Below are positions 23,934 to 30,856 of a DNA stretch of 64,000 bases, piece after piece (within the stretch, counting starts at the first letter, position 1; the number at the start of each line of letters is the position of its first letter). The DNA lies in assembly GCF_000787855.1 (NCBI RefSeq), contig NZ_BBPQ01000002.1, forward strand, positions 45,432-109,431, given 5' to 3'. The DNA comes from Streptacidiphilus anmyonensis. Lineage in GTDB: Bacteria; Actinomycetota; Actinomycetes; Streptomycetales; Streptomycetaceae. The position numbers were made by a program, and so were the translations under genes. The notes below the pieces were generated by a model, which made no database searches, was not told where the DNA came from, and saw nothing but the letters and a program-made list of their open reading frames with translations.

Positions 23934-23976
23934 CCAGATGGGGCAACCATCCGATGATCAGAAAGGCTCCCCCCTC

Positions 23977-25068
23977 GTGCCGACGACGGTCCGCGCCGCC
24001 CTGCTCCCCTCCGTGGGCGCAGCCCTCGAACTCACCGAGATCAGCCTGCCCGACCCCGGGCCCGGCCAGGTGCGGGTGAAGCTCGCCGCCGCCGGCGTGT
24101 GCCACTCCGACCTGTCGCTCGCCACCGGCGTGCTCCGCGCCGCGACCCCGGTCGTGCTCGGCCACGAGGGCGCGGGCACCGTCGTCGCCGTCGGCGAGGG
24201 CGTCACGAAGGTCGCCCCCGGCGACTCGGTCGTACTGAACTGGGCGCCGGCCTGCGGGCACTGCCACCTGTGCGGGCTCGGCGAGCCCTGGCTGTGCGAG
24301 AACTCCTACGCCGCCTCCGTCGAGACGTACGCGAGCCGTGCGAGCGACGGCTCCGACGTGTATCCCGGCCTCGGCGTCGCCGCCTTCGCCGAGGAGACGG
24401 TGGTCTCGCAGAGCGCGATCATCCCCCTCCCGCAGGGGGTCCCGCTGGACGCCGCCGCGCTGCTCGGCTGCGCGGTGCTGACGGGCTACGGCGCGGTCCA
24501 CAACGCCGCGCGGGTGCGCGAGGGCGAGTCCGCCGTCGTCTTCGGCCTGGGCGGCGTCGGTCTGGCCGTGCTCCAGGGGCTGCGGATCGCCGGGGCGGGG
24601 CCGGTCGTCGCGGTGGACGTCACGCCGGAGAAGGAGGAGCTGGCCCGCCGTCACGGCGCGACGGACTTCGTCCTCGCCGACGAGCAGACGGCCAAGACCG
24701 TCCGCAAGCTCACCGGCGGACACGGCGCCGACCACGCCTTCGAGTGCGTGGGCCGCTCCGCCACGATCCGCGCCGCCTGGAACTCCACCCGCCGCGGCGG
24801 CCGCACCACCGTCGTCGGCATCGGCTCCAAGGACGACCAGGTCGCCTTCAACGCCCTGGAGATCTTCCACTTCGCCCGCACCCTGACCGCCTGCGTCTAC
24901 GGCGACGGCGTCCCGGAGCGCGACGTCCCGATCCTCGCCGACCACGTCCGCGCGGGCCGCCTCGACCTCGACGCCCTCATCACGGACCGGATCGCCCTGG
25001 ACGACATCCCGGCCGCCTTCGACCGCATGCGCGAGGGCAAGGGCGGCCGCTCACTGGTGGTCTTCTAG
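23977..25068 (+). CDS. Zinc-dependent alcohol dehydrogenase (class III type, MDR superfamily)
   Basis: A 363-residue enzyme. Catalytic zinc ligands are Cys in GVCHSDLS and GHEGAG. The complete structural-zinc cysteine set is seen in CGHCHLCGLGEPWLC. The Rossmann motif is VFGLGGVGLAVLQG. ALLGCAVLTGYGAVHNAA and IDDIPAAF-like C-terminal features resemble mycothiol/glutathione-independent class III dehydrogenases. The GTG at 23977, ten bases after AGAAAGG, is preferred to an ATG 13 codons earlier that lies in the repeat element. It is likely to work with the upstream aldehyde dehydrogenase. Confidence 0.92.
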   Translation: MPTTVRAALLPSVGAALELTEISLPDPGPGQVRVKLAAAGVCHSDLSLATGVLRAATPVVLGHEGAGTVVAVGEGVTKVAPGDSVVLNWAPACGHCHLCGLGEPWLCENSYAASVETYASRASDGSDVYPGLGVAAFAEETVVSQSAIIPLPQGVPLDAAALLGCAVLTGYGAVHNAARVREGESAVVFGLGGVGLAVLQGLRIAGAGPVVAVDVTPEKEELARRHGATDFVLADEQTAKTVRKLTGGHGADHAFECVGRSATIRAAWNSTRRGGRTTVVGIGSKDDQVAFNALEIFHFARTLTACVYGDGVPERDVPILADHVRAGRLDLDALITDRIALDDIPAAFDRMREGKGGRSLVVF

Positions 25069-25156
25069 CCAGTGCGCCTGACCGCGTGGTGCCCGGCGGC
25101 GGTGACCACACAGTTGGAGTACCTAGGTTCACCATGGGACCGGGTACAGGATTCAT

Positions 25157-25178
25157 GGCACCGTCCTCCTGCGGTGCC
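25157..25178 (+). promoter_or_regulatory. Hairpin ahead of the second two-component operon, and -10-like TAGCGT
   Basis: GGCACCG (25157-25163) pairs with CGGTGCC (25172-25178) around the loop TCCTCCTG. TAGCGT follows at 25180-25185, six bases before the ATG at 25192, which lacks a Shine-Dalgarno, so the kinase message is probably leaderless. In that case the dyad would lie upstream of the transcript and act as DNA, for instance as an operator near -20 to -35. Confidence 0.45.
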
Positions 25179-25191
25179 CTAGCGTCGTGGC

Positions 25192-26442
25192 ATGACGATT
25201 CCAGCAGGACTGAGACGCACGGTCCTCCGGGCGCGGCGGGACACCGGCTTTCTTGCCGCTGGTGTGCTGCCGCACCTGGCGCTGGTGCCCGTGTGGGCCT
25301 GGGCGGCGACGACGACGACCGCCAGGACGGGGAACTGGCTCCTCACGGTTTCCGTGTCGGCCGTCCTGGTCCTGCTCGGCACCCCGGTGCTGACGGCCGT
25401 TCATCGGGCTCGTTACCGGGTGCTCATCGGTGTGGACGTCCCCCGGCTCACCCCCACCGCGCCGGAACAACGGACGTGGGCCTCGACCGCCCGGTGGCTC
25501 ACGGCGACGCGGCCGTGGCGCAGGATCGGCTACCACCTCCTGCTGGGCCCGCTGCTCGCGCTGCTGGAGCTGCTGGTGCTCGCGGAGGCAGCGGCGTGCC
25601 TGGCGGGCGTCATCGCCTGCACCTGGTCATGGGCGCTGCCCACCGGAATCCGCCAGGACTGGTTCGGCTACCCGACCCAGCTGCCGGCTTACACGGCGGC
25701 TGGACTCCTCCTCCTGTGCACCCTGCCCTGGACCGCGCGGGCAGTGGCCGGGGCCGAGGCGCGGCTGGCGTTGGGCCTGCTCGGGCCCAGCCGGGCGCAG
25801 CGGCTCCAGGAGCGGGTCGATCAGCTGGCCGTGAGCCGGACCGACTTGATCGAGGCCGTCGACGCGGAGCGCCGCCGGATCGAGCGCGACCTGCACGACG
25901 GCACCCAGCAGCGGTTGGTTTCCCTCGCGGTCAACCTGGGTCTGGCCATGGCCACCCGCCCGGACCTGCCGAGTGATGCCCGTGAGGTGATCGCGAGAGC
26001 GCATCTGGAGGCGAAGGAGGCGATCGTCGAACTCAACGACCTGGTGCGGGGGCTGCACCCGGCCGTGCTCGAAGACCGAGGTCTGGACGCGGCGTTGTCC
26101 GGGCTGGCTGCCCGCACGCCCCTGCCGGTGCGGCTGCGGGTCGATCTGGAGGACCGGGTGGCGCCCGACGTGGAGTCGGTCGCGTACTTCGTGATCTCTG
26201 AGGCGCTGACCAATGCAACCAAGCACGCCAACGCGATGCGCGCGGAGGTGACCGTCCGTCAGGTCGGCGAGGTGCTGCGCGTGCGCGTGACCGACGACGG
26301 GCTGGGCGGTGCCGACGCCGCCGTCGGCACGGGGCTGACCGGGCTGGCCAAGCGGGTCGGCTCCCTCGACGGGGCCTTCCACGTCAGCAGCCCCGTCGGC
26401 GGGCCCACCACCGTCACCGCGGAGCTGCCGTGCGCGCGGTGA
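25192..26442 (+). CDS. NarL-type sensor histidine kinase
   Basis: A 416-residue kinase. Four hydrophobic segments occupy the first half (FLAAGVLPHLALVPVWAWAA, LLTVSVSAVLVLLGTPVL, LLLGPLLALLELLVLAEAAAC, LPAYTAAGLLLLCTLPW). The dimerisation helix is ERRRIERDLHDGTQQRLVSLAVNLG, with the phosphorylated His in LHDG, and the ATPase domain has FVISEALTNATKHA, VTDDGLGGAD and GTGLTGLAKRV. It overlaps the response regulator by 13 bases. It is a paralogue of the kinase at 12635, but here no transporter genes adjoin. Confidence 0.93.
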   Translation: MTIPAGLRRTVLRARRDTGFLAAGVLPHLALVPVWAWAATTTTARTGNWLLTVSVSAVLVLLGTPVLTAVHRARYRVLIGVDVPRLTPTAPEQRTWASTARWLTATRPWRRIGYHLLLGPLLALLELLVLAEAAACLAGVIACTWSWALPTGIRQDWFGYPTQLPAYTAAGLLLLCTLPWTARAVAGAEARLALGLLGPSRAQRLQERVDQLAVSRTDLIEAVDAERRRIERDLHDGTQQRLVSLAVNLGLAMATRPDLPSDAREVIARAHLEAKEAIVELNDLVRGLHPAVLEDRGLDAALSGLAARTPLPVRLRVDLEDRVAPDVESVAYFVISEALTNATKHANAMRAEVTVRQVGEVLRVRVTDDGLGGADAAVGTGLTGLAKRVGSLDGAFHVSSPVGGPTTVTAELPCAR

Positions 26443-27080
26443 TCGCCGAGGATTCGGTGTTGTTGCGGGTCGGCCTGATCAAGGTGCTGGAGATGGGCGG
26501 GTTCCAGGTCGCCGCGGAAGCCGGCGACGCCGAGGGGCTGTTGGCGGCAGTGGCGGAGCACCGGCCCGAACTCGCCTTGATCGACGTCCGAATGCCGCCC
26601 GGCTTCACCGACGAGGGGGTGCGGGCGGCGATGGAGATCCGTCGGCGCTGGCCGGGGACGCCGGTGGTGCTGCTTTCGCAGTACGTGGAGGAGCGGTACG
26701 CGGCCGACCTGCTGTCCGCGAACACCAGCGGTGTGGGCTACCTGCTCAAGCAGCGGGTTGCCGATGTCGCCGACTTCGTGGCGGCGGTCCGGCGAGTGGC
26801 GGACGGGGGCACGGCCCTGGACCCTCAGGTCGTCGCCCAGTTGCTGCTGCGGCGCGACAGCGACCCGCTCGCGCGGCTGACCCCCCGCGAACGGGAGGTG
26901 CTCGGCCTGATGGCCGAAGGGCGTTCCAATGCCGGCATCGCGCAGGCGCTGGTGGTCAGTGAGAGCGCCGTGGCGAAGCACATCAACAACATCTTCGCCA
27001 AGCTCGACCTGCCCGTGGTCGACGCGGACCACCGCCGCGTCCTGGCCGTGCTGCGGTTCCTCGGAACGTCCCGGGCCTGA
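26430..27080 (+). CDS. NarL/LuxR-family response regulator
   Basis: A 216-residue regulator. The receiver has acidic residues in AVIAEDSVLLR, phospho-Asp in LALIDVRMPP and Lys in YLLKQRV. The LuxR domain is LTPREREVLGLMAEGRSNAGIAQAL and AVAKHINNIFAKLDL. The GTG at 26430, five bases after GGAG, gives the expected MRAVIAED N-terminus; a GTG at 26439 would cut into the first beta strand. Its gene is followed after 160 bases by the prnB-like gene, which is a plausible target. Confidence 0.93.
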   Translation: MRAVIAEDSVLLRVGLIKVLEMGGFQVAAEAGDAEGLLAAVAEHRPELALIDVRMPPGFTDEGVRAAMEIRRRWPGTPVVLLSQYVEERYAADLLSANTSGVGYLLKQRVADVADFVAAVRRVADGGTALDPQVVAQLLLRRDSDPLARLTPREREVLGLMAEGRSNAGIAQALVVSESAVAKHINNIFAKLDLPVVDADHRRVLAVLRFLGTSRA

Positions 27081-27146
27081 CCTTCCCGACTCCTCTTCCA
27101 TACGCAGTTCGTAGCGGAACAGCCGCTCCGAATAAGTCCCGACCTC

Positions 27147-27219
27147 GGAATGGCGCATTCCTCCCCCAGTTCCGTTCGCAATCACATGAATTGCACGCAC
27201 ACCTGTGCGAGAGTGTGAT
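27147..27219 (+). promoter_or_regulatory. Cluster of inverted repeats upstream of the prnB-like gene
   Basis: Three dyads are visible in this comparatively AT-rich gap. GGAATG/CATTCC lies at 27147-27161 (three-base centre). CGCACA/TGTGCG lies at 27196-27209 (two-base centre). ATCACA/TGTGAT lies at 27181-27186 and 27214-27219, enclosing the second dyad. The last ends six bases before the GGGGGAGG Shine-Dalgarno. They are candidate operators for a pathway regulator, or leader hairpins. Confidence 0.55.
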
Positions 27220-27240
27220 CAACTGGGGGAGGTTGGGATT

Positions 27241-28320
27241 GTGCAATTAACTGATTCGTTCTGCCTCGATGTCGCCGTGCGGGACCCGCTGAGGGCGGAC
27301 GACCTGCTGGCCGCACTGCCCGAGGTCAACGCACGCGCGGACACCGAAACGCTGGCCCGCATGCTGGGGGATCTGGCCGACGCCGCCGCACACGCCGAAA
27401 TCGGCACCACCGGGGACCGGCTGGCCGCCATGCGGGACCTGGGGATGCTGCTCGGCTCGCTGCGCAGGCACGAAGTGGAACCGCTGAGCGCCGTACCGCG
27501 GGCACAGCCGTTACTGCTGGATCTCGGCGCCGCGGTCGGCATGGCGCCCCGCGACACCGTGCTGCACTACGGCCCGTGGAATCCGACCGGGCCCCGGCGC
27601 CGGATGTACCTGGGAGCGGCGGAGGAGCACGTTCTGATCGACTCGGTGCTCCGCACCGCCCCCGCCATCGAGCAGGCGGCGCTCCACCTCGCGGAGCTCA
27701 CCGAACTCGACCCGGCCGGGCCCGAGTTCGCGGAGGTCTGCGCCGCCGCGGACCAGCGGTTGGCGGTGCTGCCCGAGATGATCGGACGGGTGGCCCGGGA
27801 GGTCGACCCGTCCGCCTTCTTCGCGGCCCGCCTGCGCCCGTACATGGAGGACGTCCTGATCGACGGGCACCGCTACTACGGGCCGGCGGCGGCCCATGTG
27901 CCGTTGTACCTCGTGGACCACCTGCTCTGGTCCTGCGACCGGCCCGATCCCGTCCAGGCCGCGCTCCAGGAGGAACTGGTCGAGTACGGCCTGCCCGACT
28001 GGGGCCGGCTCTACCGCAAGCACGTCAGCGGCGCCTCGGTGGTCACCGCCCTGGTCGAGCGGCTGCGCGGCGCCGGGCCGGAGCCGGACGCCCAGCTGCT
28101 GCGCTCGGCGGACGCGGTCGCCCGGATCCTGCGGACGCTGATCACCTTCCGCGGCCGCCATGTCCGGCTGGTCCGGCAGGCGTACACCGACGCCACCCCG
28201 TACGGGACGGGCAGCGCCGGCGCGGCGCCCGAGGTGGTCCAGCTGATCCTGGACCTCACCCGCCAGTGCGCCCAGCAGCTGCGACCCCGACTCAGCCGAC
28301 CCGTCGACCCCAGGCCGTGA
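27241..28320 (+). CDS. PrnB-family heme enzyme (monodechloroaminopyrrolnitrin synthase-like; IDO/TDO superfamily)
   Basis: A 359-residue protein, the same length class as Pseudomonas PrnB (about 361). From memory of that sequence the following match in order: LDVAVRDPLRADDLLAALPEVN, AAMRDLGMLLGSLRRHEVEP, VLHYGPWNPTG (109-117), RLRPYMEDVLIDGHRYYGP, HVPLYLVDHLLW (219-230) and LITFRGRHVRLVRQAY. His307 occupies the place of the axial heme ligand. The loop YGTGSAG (321-327) is equivalent to the glycine-rich active-site segment. PrnB rearranges 7-chlorotryptophan to a phenylpyrrole, so a tryptophan-derived substrate is inferred. The GTG at 27241 follows GGGGGAGG by eight bases. Two TTA codons (residues 3 and 91) imply bldA dependence. 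No halogenase or prnC/prnD homologue is nearby. Confidence 0.85.
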   Translation: MQLTDSFCLDVAVRDPLRADDLLAALPEVNARADTETLARMLGDLADAAAHAEIGTTGDRLAAMRDLGMLLGSLRRHEVEPLSAVPRAQPLLLDLGAAVGMAPRDTVLHYGPWNPTGPRRRMYLGAAEEHVLIDSVLRTAPAIEQAALHLAELTELDPAGPEFAEVCAAADQRLAVLPEMIGRVAREVDPSAFFAARLRPYMEDVLIDGHRYYGPAAAHVPLYLVDHLLWSCDRPDPVQAALQEELVEYGLPDWGRLYRKHVSGASVVTALVERLRGAGPEPDAQLLRSADAVARILRTLITFRGRHVRLVRQAYTDATPYGTGSAGAAPEVVQLILDLTRQCAQQLRPRLSRPVDPRP

Positions 28321-29086
28321 CCATGAAGTTGGGCACGTGCATGACGCCCTGACGTTCGGTCAGTTCGATCGTCGCGTCGAGGTCGGCATCGGTCAGCAGA
28401 CCGGTGCCGACCAGGCGCGGCCGAAGCCTGCGCAGGGTCAGCCCGAGGAAGGCCGTGCCCCCGGGCAGCAGCGGAGCGTGCACCCGCGCGGCCACCTCGA
28501 CCAGCCCGGCCGACGCCAGCGCCTCGGGCAGCCGACGTCCATATCCGGCGTCCACTCCGGCCGCGGTGAACGCCGCCTCCAGCGCCCGGAACAGCCGCCC
28601 CGCCAACTCCTCGGAGCCGGACGGCCAGTACCGCGCCACCGCGTCGGCCATCGGGCCCTCGACGTCGAAGTCCTCCAGCACCACCCAGCCGCCGGGGCGG
28701 GCGGCGGCCACCAGGCGCCGCAGCGCCTCGTCCCGCTCCGGGATGTGCTCCACCACCGCACGGGCGTGCACCAGATCGAACGCGCCCTCCGGCAGCGGAT
28801 CGGCCATCAGGTCGTGCTGCCGCACCTCCAGGCCGGGAACGTCCACGCCGAGCGCGAAACGCGGATCCAGATCCACGGCCAGCACCCGGCCGGTGCCGCC
28901 GACCCGCTCCGCGAGCCAGCGTGCGACGCTCCCGGCTCCGCACCCCACCTCCAGGCAGCGCCACCCCTCGCCGACGCCCAGCGCCGCGAGCCGCTCCCTG
29001 GTCGGGCCGTCGTAGACGGCCTCCAGCGAAGCCAGGCGATCCCGCTCGCTCTCCCAGGTCTGTTCGAACACATACGACTCAACCAT
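28292..29086 (-). CDS. Class I SAM-dependent methyltransferase
   Basis: A 264-residue enzyme. SAM-binding motif I is CLEVGCGAGSVARWLAERVG (about 50-69), followed by VLAVDLDPRFA, QHDLMADPLP, FDLVHARAVVEHIPER, and PGGWVVLEDFDVEGP for post-motif strands. The substrate domain cannot be assigned. GGGGGAGC precedes the ATG at 29086. Its 3' end overlaps the prnB-like gene tail to tail by 29 bases, so the two are antisense at their ends. It could modify the product of that enzyme, but this is only an inference from proximity. Confidence 0.88.
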   Translation of the reverse strand: MVESYVFEQTWESERDRLASLEAVYDGPTRERLAALGVGEGWRCLEVGCGAGSVARWLAERVGGTGRVLAVDLDPRFALGVDVPGLEVRQHDLMADPLPEGAFDLVHARAVVEHIPERDEALRRLVAAARPGGWVVLEDFDVEGPMADAVARYWPSGSEELAGRLFRALEAAFTAAGVDAGYGRRLPEALASAGLVEVAARVHAPLLPGGTAFLGLTLRRLRPRLVGTGLLTDADLDATIELTERQGVMHVPNFMVTAWGRRVG

Positions 29087-29127
29087 CGGCGCTCCCCCAT
29101 TGTGCGTCGCGGATCTTGGCCCACTGT

Positions 29128-29161
29128 ATCCGAGCCCGCTCCGCATCCGAGCCCGCTCCGC
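29128..29161. repeat. 17-bp perfect tandem duplication in the prfC upstream region
   Basis: The unit atccgagcccgctccgc occurs at 29128-29144 and again at 29145-29161 without mismatch. A TAGAGT hexamer (-10-like) follows at 29175-29180, so the repeat lies at about the -35 region of a possible prfC promoter. Confidence 0.8.
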
Positions 29162-29242
29162 CCGGCCGGGCAGGTAGAGTGGTGCGGTTGCCCCGAACGG
29201 CATGCCGTAGAACGAGACCGTGCGAAGGACCTGAGGAACGAC

Positions 29243-30856
29243 GTGAGCACCGACTCCCCCGCCACCGCTGCCCAGGTTCTGCAGGAGGCCTCGCGCCGCC
29301 GCACCTTCGCCGTCATCTCGCACCCCGACGCCGGCAAGTCGACGCTGACCGAGGCGCTGGCGCTGCACGCGCAGGCGATCACCTCGGCCGGCGCCGTGCA
29401 CGGCAAGGGCGGGCGCAAGGGCGTCACGTCCGACTGGATGGAGCTGGAGCGGGACCGAGGCATCTCGGTGACCTCCGCAGCGCTGCAGTTCGGGCACCGC
29501 GACCACGTGATGAACCTCGTCGACACCCCCGGCCACGCCGACTTCTCCGAGGACACCTACCGCGTGCTGTCCGCGGTCGACTGCGCGATCATGCTGGTCG
29601 ACGCGGCCAAGGGTCTGGAGGAGCAGACCCGCAAGCTCTTCTCGGTCTGCCGCCACCGCGGCGTGCCGGTGATCACCTTCATCAACAAGTGGGACCGCCG
29701 TGGTCGCGAGGCGCTGGAGCTGCTGGACGACATCCAGAACATCCTGGAGATCACGCCCGTCCCGCAGGTCTGGCCGGTCGGCAACGCGGGCAACTTCCGC
29801 GGCCTGGTCGAGGCGGCGGACACCGAGCAGTTCCTGAAGTACACCCGCGTCCCCGGCGGCACCCACGAGGCCGTGGAGGAGCGGATGGACGCCGCCGCGG
29901 CCGAGACCGTCGAGGGCGAGCTGTGGCCGACCGCGCTGGAGGAGCTGGAGCTCGCGCTCGACTCCGGGCCGGGCTGGGACCCGCAGGCCTTCCGCGAGGG
30001 CAAGATCACCCCGGTCTTCTTCGGCTCCGCACTCACCAACATCGGCGTCCGGCTGCTGCTCGACGCCGTCGTGGACCTGGCCCCCTCCCCCGACGCGCGC
30101 GAGATGGCCAACGGCGACCGCCGCCCGGTGGAGGAGGAGTTCTCCGGCGTGGTGTTCAAGATCCAGGCCAACATGGACCCGGCCCACCGCGACCGCATCG
30201 CGTTCATCCGCGTCTGCTCCGGCGTCTTCGAGCGCGGCATGAACGTGACCCGCGCCGCCTCCGGCCGCTCGCTGGCGACCAAGTACGCGCACACCGTCTT
30301 CGGCGCGGAGCGCACCGTCGCCGACATCTGCTACCCCGGCGACGTGGTCGGCCTGATCAACGCGACCGCGCTGCGGGTCGGCGACACACTCTTCGTCGGC
30401 AAGAAGGCCGAGTTCCCGCCGCTGCCGGCGTTCGCCCCCGAGCACTTCGCCGTGGCCCGCCCGAAGGACATCAGCCGCAGCAAGCAGTTCCGCAAGGGCA
30501 TCTCGCAGCTGGACGAGGAAGGCGTCGTCCAGGTCCTCACCTCGGACCGCCGCGGCGACCAGGCCCCGGTGCTGGCCGCCGTCGGCCCCATGCAGTTCGA
30601 CGTCGTGCTGCACCGCATGGAGCACGAGTTCTCCTCGCCGATCGTGCTGGAGCGCCTGCCCTACTCGCTCGCCCGCGTCACCGACGCGGCCGGCGCGGAC
30701 GTGCTGAACAAGGCCCGCCTGGTCACCGGCGAGCCGCTGACCCGCCGCAGCGACAACGCGATGCTCGCGCTGTTCGGCGACAAGTGGCAGCTGAACAGCT
30801 TCGTCCGGGGCAACCCGGACGTGAAGCTGGAGACGCTGATCGCCACCGCGGACTAG
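29243..30856 (+). CDS. prfC: Peptide chain release factor 3 (GTPase)
   Basis: A 537-residue translational GTPase that recycles class I release factors from the ribosome. G-domain motifs are ISHPDAGKSTLTE (P-loop), DRGISVTSA (switch I), VDTPGHADFSEDTYR (switch II) and NKWDRRGRE. Domain II includes FKIQANMDPAHRDRIAFIR and the C-terminal part RLPYSLARV. The GTG at 29243 after GAGGAA fits the family start; a much longer upstream frame is excluded by the divergent methyltransferase gene. The stop codon overlaps the stop of the convergent sigma-factor gene within the sequence CTAG. Confidence 0.96.
   Translation: MSTDSPATAAQVLQEASRRRTFAVISHPDAGKSTLTEALALHAQAITSAGAVHGKGGRKGVTSDWMELERDRGISVTSAALQFGHRDHVMNLVDTPGHADFSEDTYRVLSAVDCAIMLVDAAKGLEEQTRKLFSVCRHRGVPVITFINKWDRRGREALELLDDIQNILEITPVPQVWPVGNAGNFRGLVEAADTEQFLKYTRVPGGTHEAVEERMDAAAAETVEGELWPTALEELELALDSGPGWDPQAFREGKITPVFFGSALTNIGVRLLLDAVVDLAPSPDAREMANGDRRPVEEEFSGVVFKIQANMDPAHRDRIAFIRVCSGVFERGMNVTRAASGRSLATKYAHTVFGAERTVADICYPGDVVGLINATALRVGDTLFVGKKAEFPPLPAFAPEHFAVARPKDISRSKQFRKGISQLDEEGVVQVLTSDRRGDQAPVLAAVGPMQFDVVLHRMEHEFSSPIVLERLPYSLARVTDAAGADVLNKARLVTGEPLTRRSDNAMLALFGDKWQLNSFVRGNPDVKLETLIATAD

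Follow-up and report, generated by a model that had tools for sequence, protein, structure and literature searches.

A PrnB-family heme enzyme gene paired tail to tail with a methyltransferase gene in an inserted islet of Streptacidiphilus anmyonensis

The window, a stretch of 64,000 nucleotides of DNA of the soil actinomycete Streptacidiphilus anmyonensis that was analysed as a whole, carries a gene for a genuine full-length member of the PrnB family, which lies tail to tail with a methyltransferase gene. PrnB is an unusual heme enzyme that rebuilds tryptophan in the bacterial synthesis of the antifungal pyrrolnitrin. The association with the methyltransferase is a previously undescribed gene pairing around a known enzyme family; a search of the open-access literature, outside which most subscription journals lie, found no paper on actinobacterial PrnB-like loci. 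On balance, we favour the interpretation that the His-ligated heme enzyme and the convergent methyltransferase constitute a mobile two-gene module for a methylated tryptophan-derived metabolite, whose substrate, reaction and product we infer. The genes and features of the region are as follows.

23938-25068, + strand: zinc alcohol dehydrogenase (ADH), left flank, conserved in the genus (Pfam, synteny)
25069-29172 (outer limits), no strand: inserted islet of about 4.1 kb with the two-component system, prnB and methyltransferase genes (synteny, prfC promoter block, GC3)
25192-26442, + strand: sensor histidine kinase (HisKA_3), part of the islet (Pfam; congener orthologues at other sites)
26430-27080, + strand: NarL/LuxR-type response regulator (Pfam; 86-90% orthologues in congeners without PrnB)
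27196-27209, no strand: inverted repeat CGCACA-CC-TGTGCG 5' of prnB, candidate operator (read in the sequence)
27241-28320, + strand: PrnB-family heme enzyme, 359 aa, GTG start (PF08933, PDB and model matches, H307, S325)
28292-29086, - strand: class I SAM-dependent methyltransferase, 264 aa (PF13489/PF08241; convergent homologues next to PrnB in 7 other loci)
29243-30856, + strand: prfC, peptide chain release factor 3, right flank, conserved in the genus (Pfam RF3_C, synteny)

The PrnB-like open reading frame starts with the GTG at 27241, closely preceded by a Shine-Dalgarno sequence (GGGGGAGG) that was rated good, and runs over 359 codons to the stop at 28318-28320. Its product matched the Pfam family PF08933 (PrnB) with an E-value of 7e-37 and a score of 127.5 bits, the curated cut-off being 27; no NCBIfam model matched it. 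Residues 11-351 align with residues 18-358 of the PrnB structure 2v7i of Pseudomonas fluorescens (PfPrnB; E 5e-48), and the second solved PrnB, 9dfg from Flavobacteriales (FbPrnB), was matched with an E-value of 2e-39. The identity to PfPrnB (31.6%) and to FbPrnB (27.9%) compares with 33.9% between these two enzymes. The AlphaFold2 model of the protein (pLDDT 91.3) superimposes on PrnB with a Foldseek TM of about 0.9 and, in VIA-align, with Z-scores of 42.6-44.9 over the PrnB structures (rmsd 1.6 Å at Z 44.9). IDO1/2 and SO4414 share the superfamily fold with the window protein, where a His-ligated heme is predicted, but they reach only Z ~28-30 (IDO2/IDO1) and 31.5 (SO4414) at 12-16% identity, so that the test for IDO proper as the closest match came out in favour of PrnB. 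The predicted structure thus has the PrnB/IDO superfamily fold, and the whole-length likeness to PrnB that the initial annotation had read by eye is borne out by the family, PDB and model matches; the structure comparison it had proposed returned the IDO/TDO superfamily with PrnB as the best match.

The window protein shares with both PrnBs the full-length homology, the fold and the proximal histidine, as well as the GSxG serine loop and the RD..HY..WNP and FR..H motifs. His307, which had been pointed out as the heme ligand in the motif FRGRHVRL, indeed falls on the position of His313, the proximal heme ligand of PfPrnB, in the alignment and is invariant in the 17 sequences compared. The GTGSAG loop is kept as had been claimed, its Ser325 occupying the position of FbPrnB Ser319, the loop serine that binds the substrate carboxylate (PMC11791213); the roles of Tyr104 and Val117 in PrnB are described in the same work. 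Of the positions compared, the most important ones are conserved with respect to PrnB, namely Asp66, His77, Arg104, His109, Trp113, Asn114, Arg199, Phe303, Arg304, His307, Tyr315 and Ser325, and Tyr110 together with the GSAG loop matches FbPrnB and not PfPrnB. The carboxylate contacts Gly210/Gly211 of FbPrnB correspond to Ala217/Ala218 in the window protein; PfPrnB has Ala/Val at these positions, so even genuine PrnBs differ from one another in these contacts.

The PrnB-like gene and its neighbours form an islet that was gained at this site, in one step or several. In nine of nine congeners examined, neither the two genes of the two-component system nor the PrnB and methyltransferase genes lie between the ADH gene and prfC, and it is the absence of these four genes that identifies the block as inserted; one of the nine has a different small open reading frame in this place. 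The prfC promoter block is preserved from position 29173, and the inserted genes have a GC3 of 0.89-0.92 against 0.94-0.98 in the flanks. A perfect 17-bp tandem duplication, ATCCGAGCCCGCTCCGC, lies at 29128-29161, close to the right-hand end of the islet. A two-component system directly upstream of prnB, as had been annotated, is present (25192-27080), but its role as a dedicated part of the pathway found no support: most congeners examined carry orthologues elsewhere (kinase 72-77%, regulator 86-90%) away from any PrnB, which makes it probably not a dedicated partner, and no such system was seen in the other loci with the PrnB-methyltransferase pair. A biosynthetic cluster extending over the window was considered and rejected, as the surrounding genes that were checked (ALDH, ADH, RF3, ECF-type sigma factor, PnuC-like transporter, TldD/PmbA) seem to serve core functions or unrelated ones. 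An Rfam search of the window gave no match.

The methyltransferase gene is convergent with the PrnB-like gene and overlaps it by 29 bp. This tail-to-tail arrangement, already recognized in the initial annotation, proved to be conserved: it was found in eight loci including the window, in about six genomic contexts and three families, namely also in Kitasatospora humi, Streptoalloteichus hindustanus, Saccharopolyspora rosea, Streptomyces chumphonensis, Streptomyces sp. JJ38 and two Actinopolyspora species (L031, L032, L034, L043, L062, L063 and L078), always in the orientation seen in the window. In Actinopolyspora the pair was detected by tblastn, the gene caller having missed or cut the methyltransferase. 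The roughly six contexts are unrelated, and the only other consistently common neighbour is a TPMT-like methyltransferase gene, directly upstream of PrnB in three loci. Because seven other actinomycetes have the methyltransferase next to PrnB, with its orientation unchanged, it is probably a dedicated partner of the enzyme. A 10-mer 5' of prnB, GTGCGAGAGT, is common to the window and K. humi and is too short to carry weight as a promoter element.

The neighbourhood comparison that had been suggested was made on the best 80 named PrnB loci, which were found by short peptide patterns and read with flanks of up to 10 kb and gene calls from a simple codon-bias script. Of 78 neighbourhoods, 8 contained the methyltransferase and 66 a FAD_binding_3 flavin monooxygenase, and none contained both, with the methyltransferase-linked group having been defined only after the neighbourhoods had been viewed. 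Most PrnB-like genes thus read lie in small clusters of their own with the flavin monooxygenase. Neither partner was found in four neighbourhoods; Paractinoplanes L066 appears to be without both, and in the other three, short or missing open reading frames suggest that the monooxygenase genes are probably fragmented or cut off.

In the phylogeny, the window protein forms a strongly supported clade with those of K. humi and S. hindustanus, separate from the monooxygenase-linked relatives, and the remaining methyltransferase-linked PrnBs form a second clade that is separate in the best tree. A single clade of all methyltransferase-linked PrnBs was not rejected (p-AU 0.31), and the data are compatible with one origin of the pair or with separate origins. 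Within the first clade, the methyltransferases share 63-68% identity, and those called in the second share ~59-70%; between the clades they are 35-43% identical, about the same distance as to unlinked paralogues. A structure search with the methyltransferase was uninformative on its target, since many enzymes that methylate small molecules at N, O or S matched it with TM values of 0.5-0.7.

According to the favoured interpretation, the heme held by the predicted ligand His307 would bind L-tryptophan or a simple tryptophan derivative, and Ser325 of the GTGSAG loop would close on the substrate's carboxylate in the manner of FbPrnB. With no chlorination beforehand, the indole amino acid would then undergo an oxidation or an oxidative rearrangement of the PrnB type. 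Methylation of either the substrate or the product by the methyltransferase would yield a small tryptophan-derived methylated metabolite, which may be an aminophenylpyrrole; heme loading and the order of these steps are what we infer for the window enzyme. The mutual exclusivity of methyltransferase and flavin monooxygenase speaks for such a module, but the two methyltransferase-linked clades stand apart in the best tree and a convergent gene pair can form no operon. It is conceivable, though doubtful, that a PrnB-type enzyme and one SAM methyltransferase are already sufficient, as a horizontally moving pathway, to make either a phenylpyrrole that is methylated but carries no halogen or a novel rearranged indole product from plain tryptophan. 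If true, the two-gene pathway would be a minimal system for reconstituting the PrnB reaction, the smallest version and one that is easily expressed and assayed. More generally, the partners that replace one another beside PrnB relatives (methyltransferase, flavin monooxygenase, LCM methyltransferase, tryptophan biosynthesis genes) indicate where missing components may be sought.

A tryptophan derivative is a plausible substrate by analogy. PrnB also takes unchlorinated tryptophan (PMC11791213), and since no activity could be reconstituted with purified PrnB in the same study, function is not readable from structure. Seven of the monooxygenase-linked relatives have a trpC homologue near PrnB, and most of these also have trpD, trpG and trpE homologues (Pfam domains confirmed in L098); these clusters belong to the monooxygenase-linked branch and not to that of the window protein. 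Judged from the trp genes of the relatives and the recurrent methyltransferases, a methylated tryptophan-derived product is most likely the output of the window branch. The actinobacterial monooxygenase/HpaB/MFS-linked PrnB-like proteins (e.g. L033, L098) are 39-46% identical to the window protein and share PF08933 and the conserved motifs, but their partner genes differ, including the tryptophan biosynthesis genes in the seven loci mentioned.

The gene could also be the remnant of a pyrrolnitrin cluster, with pyrrolnitrin being made by genes elsewhere in the genome, and the membership of the protein in the PrnB family would fit this. However, no prn genes lie beside the PrnB-like gene, which in this respect and by its methyltransferase partner differs from PrnB, and no prnD Rieske oxygenase gene was found among the genes between ADH and prfC. 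A genome-wide PF04820 profile search detected no PrnA/PrnC-type halogenase, which makes chlorotryptophan an unlikely substrate; its best match was a RadH/CmlS-type halogenase, which is encoded within a type II PKS locus on another contig, and the only further one was weak and partial. The gene is also missing from the 13 congeners searched. With PrnA and PrnC absent, this explanation was rejected as practically without credibility, and the statement that the gene stands outside a pyrrolnitrin cluster was confirmed. The designation as an orphan holds in this sense only, because the gene itself is not rare: PF08933 occurs in 45 of 392 genomes of the order, although in 1 of 14 of the genus, and such "orphan" PrnB-like genes are common.

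It is rather unlikely, but deserves consideration, that the protein is a PrnB-fold tryptophan hydroxylase or other monooxygenase that carries out no ring rearrangement, with its product being O- or N-methylated by the methyltransferase. Relatives among the heme-dependent aromatic oxygenases (MarE, Luz15-type) oxygenate tryptophan or methyl-tryptophan, a hydroxyl group would provide the acceptor for the methyltransferase, and the PrnB homologue PdnC of the paenidepsin clusters of Paenibacillus is suspected of indole hydroxylation (PMC13036774). PdnC, likened here by its description, also occurs outside pyrrolnitrin clusters, but it is NRPS-linked, unlike the window gene, and its function is termed speculative in that paper itself; moreover, the sequence and fold of the window protein are far nearer to PrnB than to IDO. 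We regard as improbable that the PrnB-like enzyme acts alone or with unlinked genes and that the methyltransferase is a mere travelling companion. Convergence of two genes argues less strongly for a shared role than an operon would, and Paractinoplanes L066 and two Bacteroidota PrnB-like genes appear to be without either partner nearby, yet the orientation is kept in all eight loci over about six contexts and the partner excludes the monooxygenase.

Several further gene arrangements were observed in the survey. Many Streptomyces possess a conserved locus like L033 (5807-15177) with an AraC regulator, an HpaB-type oxygenase, an MFS transporter, the PrnB-like gene and a FAD monooxygenase, adjoining a large gene, likewise conserved, whose product resembles a glycogen phosphorylase; it apparently represents an undescribed pathway. 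The same PrnB-monooxygenase-HpaB-MFS set, typical of Streptomyces, is present in the Neisseriaceae genome JH1-16 (L109 10001-11026), which suggests a transfer between phyla or a contaminant contig. In Streptomyces parvulus (L098 4320-20211) the PrnB-like gene is accompanied by a ketoacyl synthase, a BBE-type oxidase, HpaB and the trpC, trpD, trpG and trpE homologues, and similar clusters occur in K. aureofaciens and others. An LCM-type methyltransferase is located beside the monooxygenase or fused to it in eight loci; the fusion follows PrnB directly in Micromonospora and relatives (L079 11065-13200), and the two are unfused in some Streptomyces. The RadH/CmlS-like halogenase of S. anmyonensis belongs to a type II PKS-like locus (L173 2948-10060). 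Two Streptomyces-like genomes contain a second PF08933 subfamily that scores much higher, at 281-316 bits (L002 1501-2673, L003 1501-2499); its L003 member, the one compared, shares just 24% identity with the window protein. The two Bacteroidota PrnB-like genes (L107 5099-6755, L110 9496-11032), with no methyltransferase or monooxygenase seen nearby, each follow a small gene of 136-144 codons, and these small genes are similar. Finally, a plasmid-borne PrnB-like gene of Streptomyces (L181 7821-9814) is directly followed by a GNAT acetyltransferase gene.
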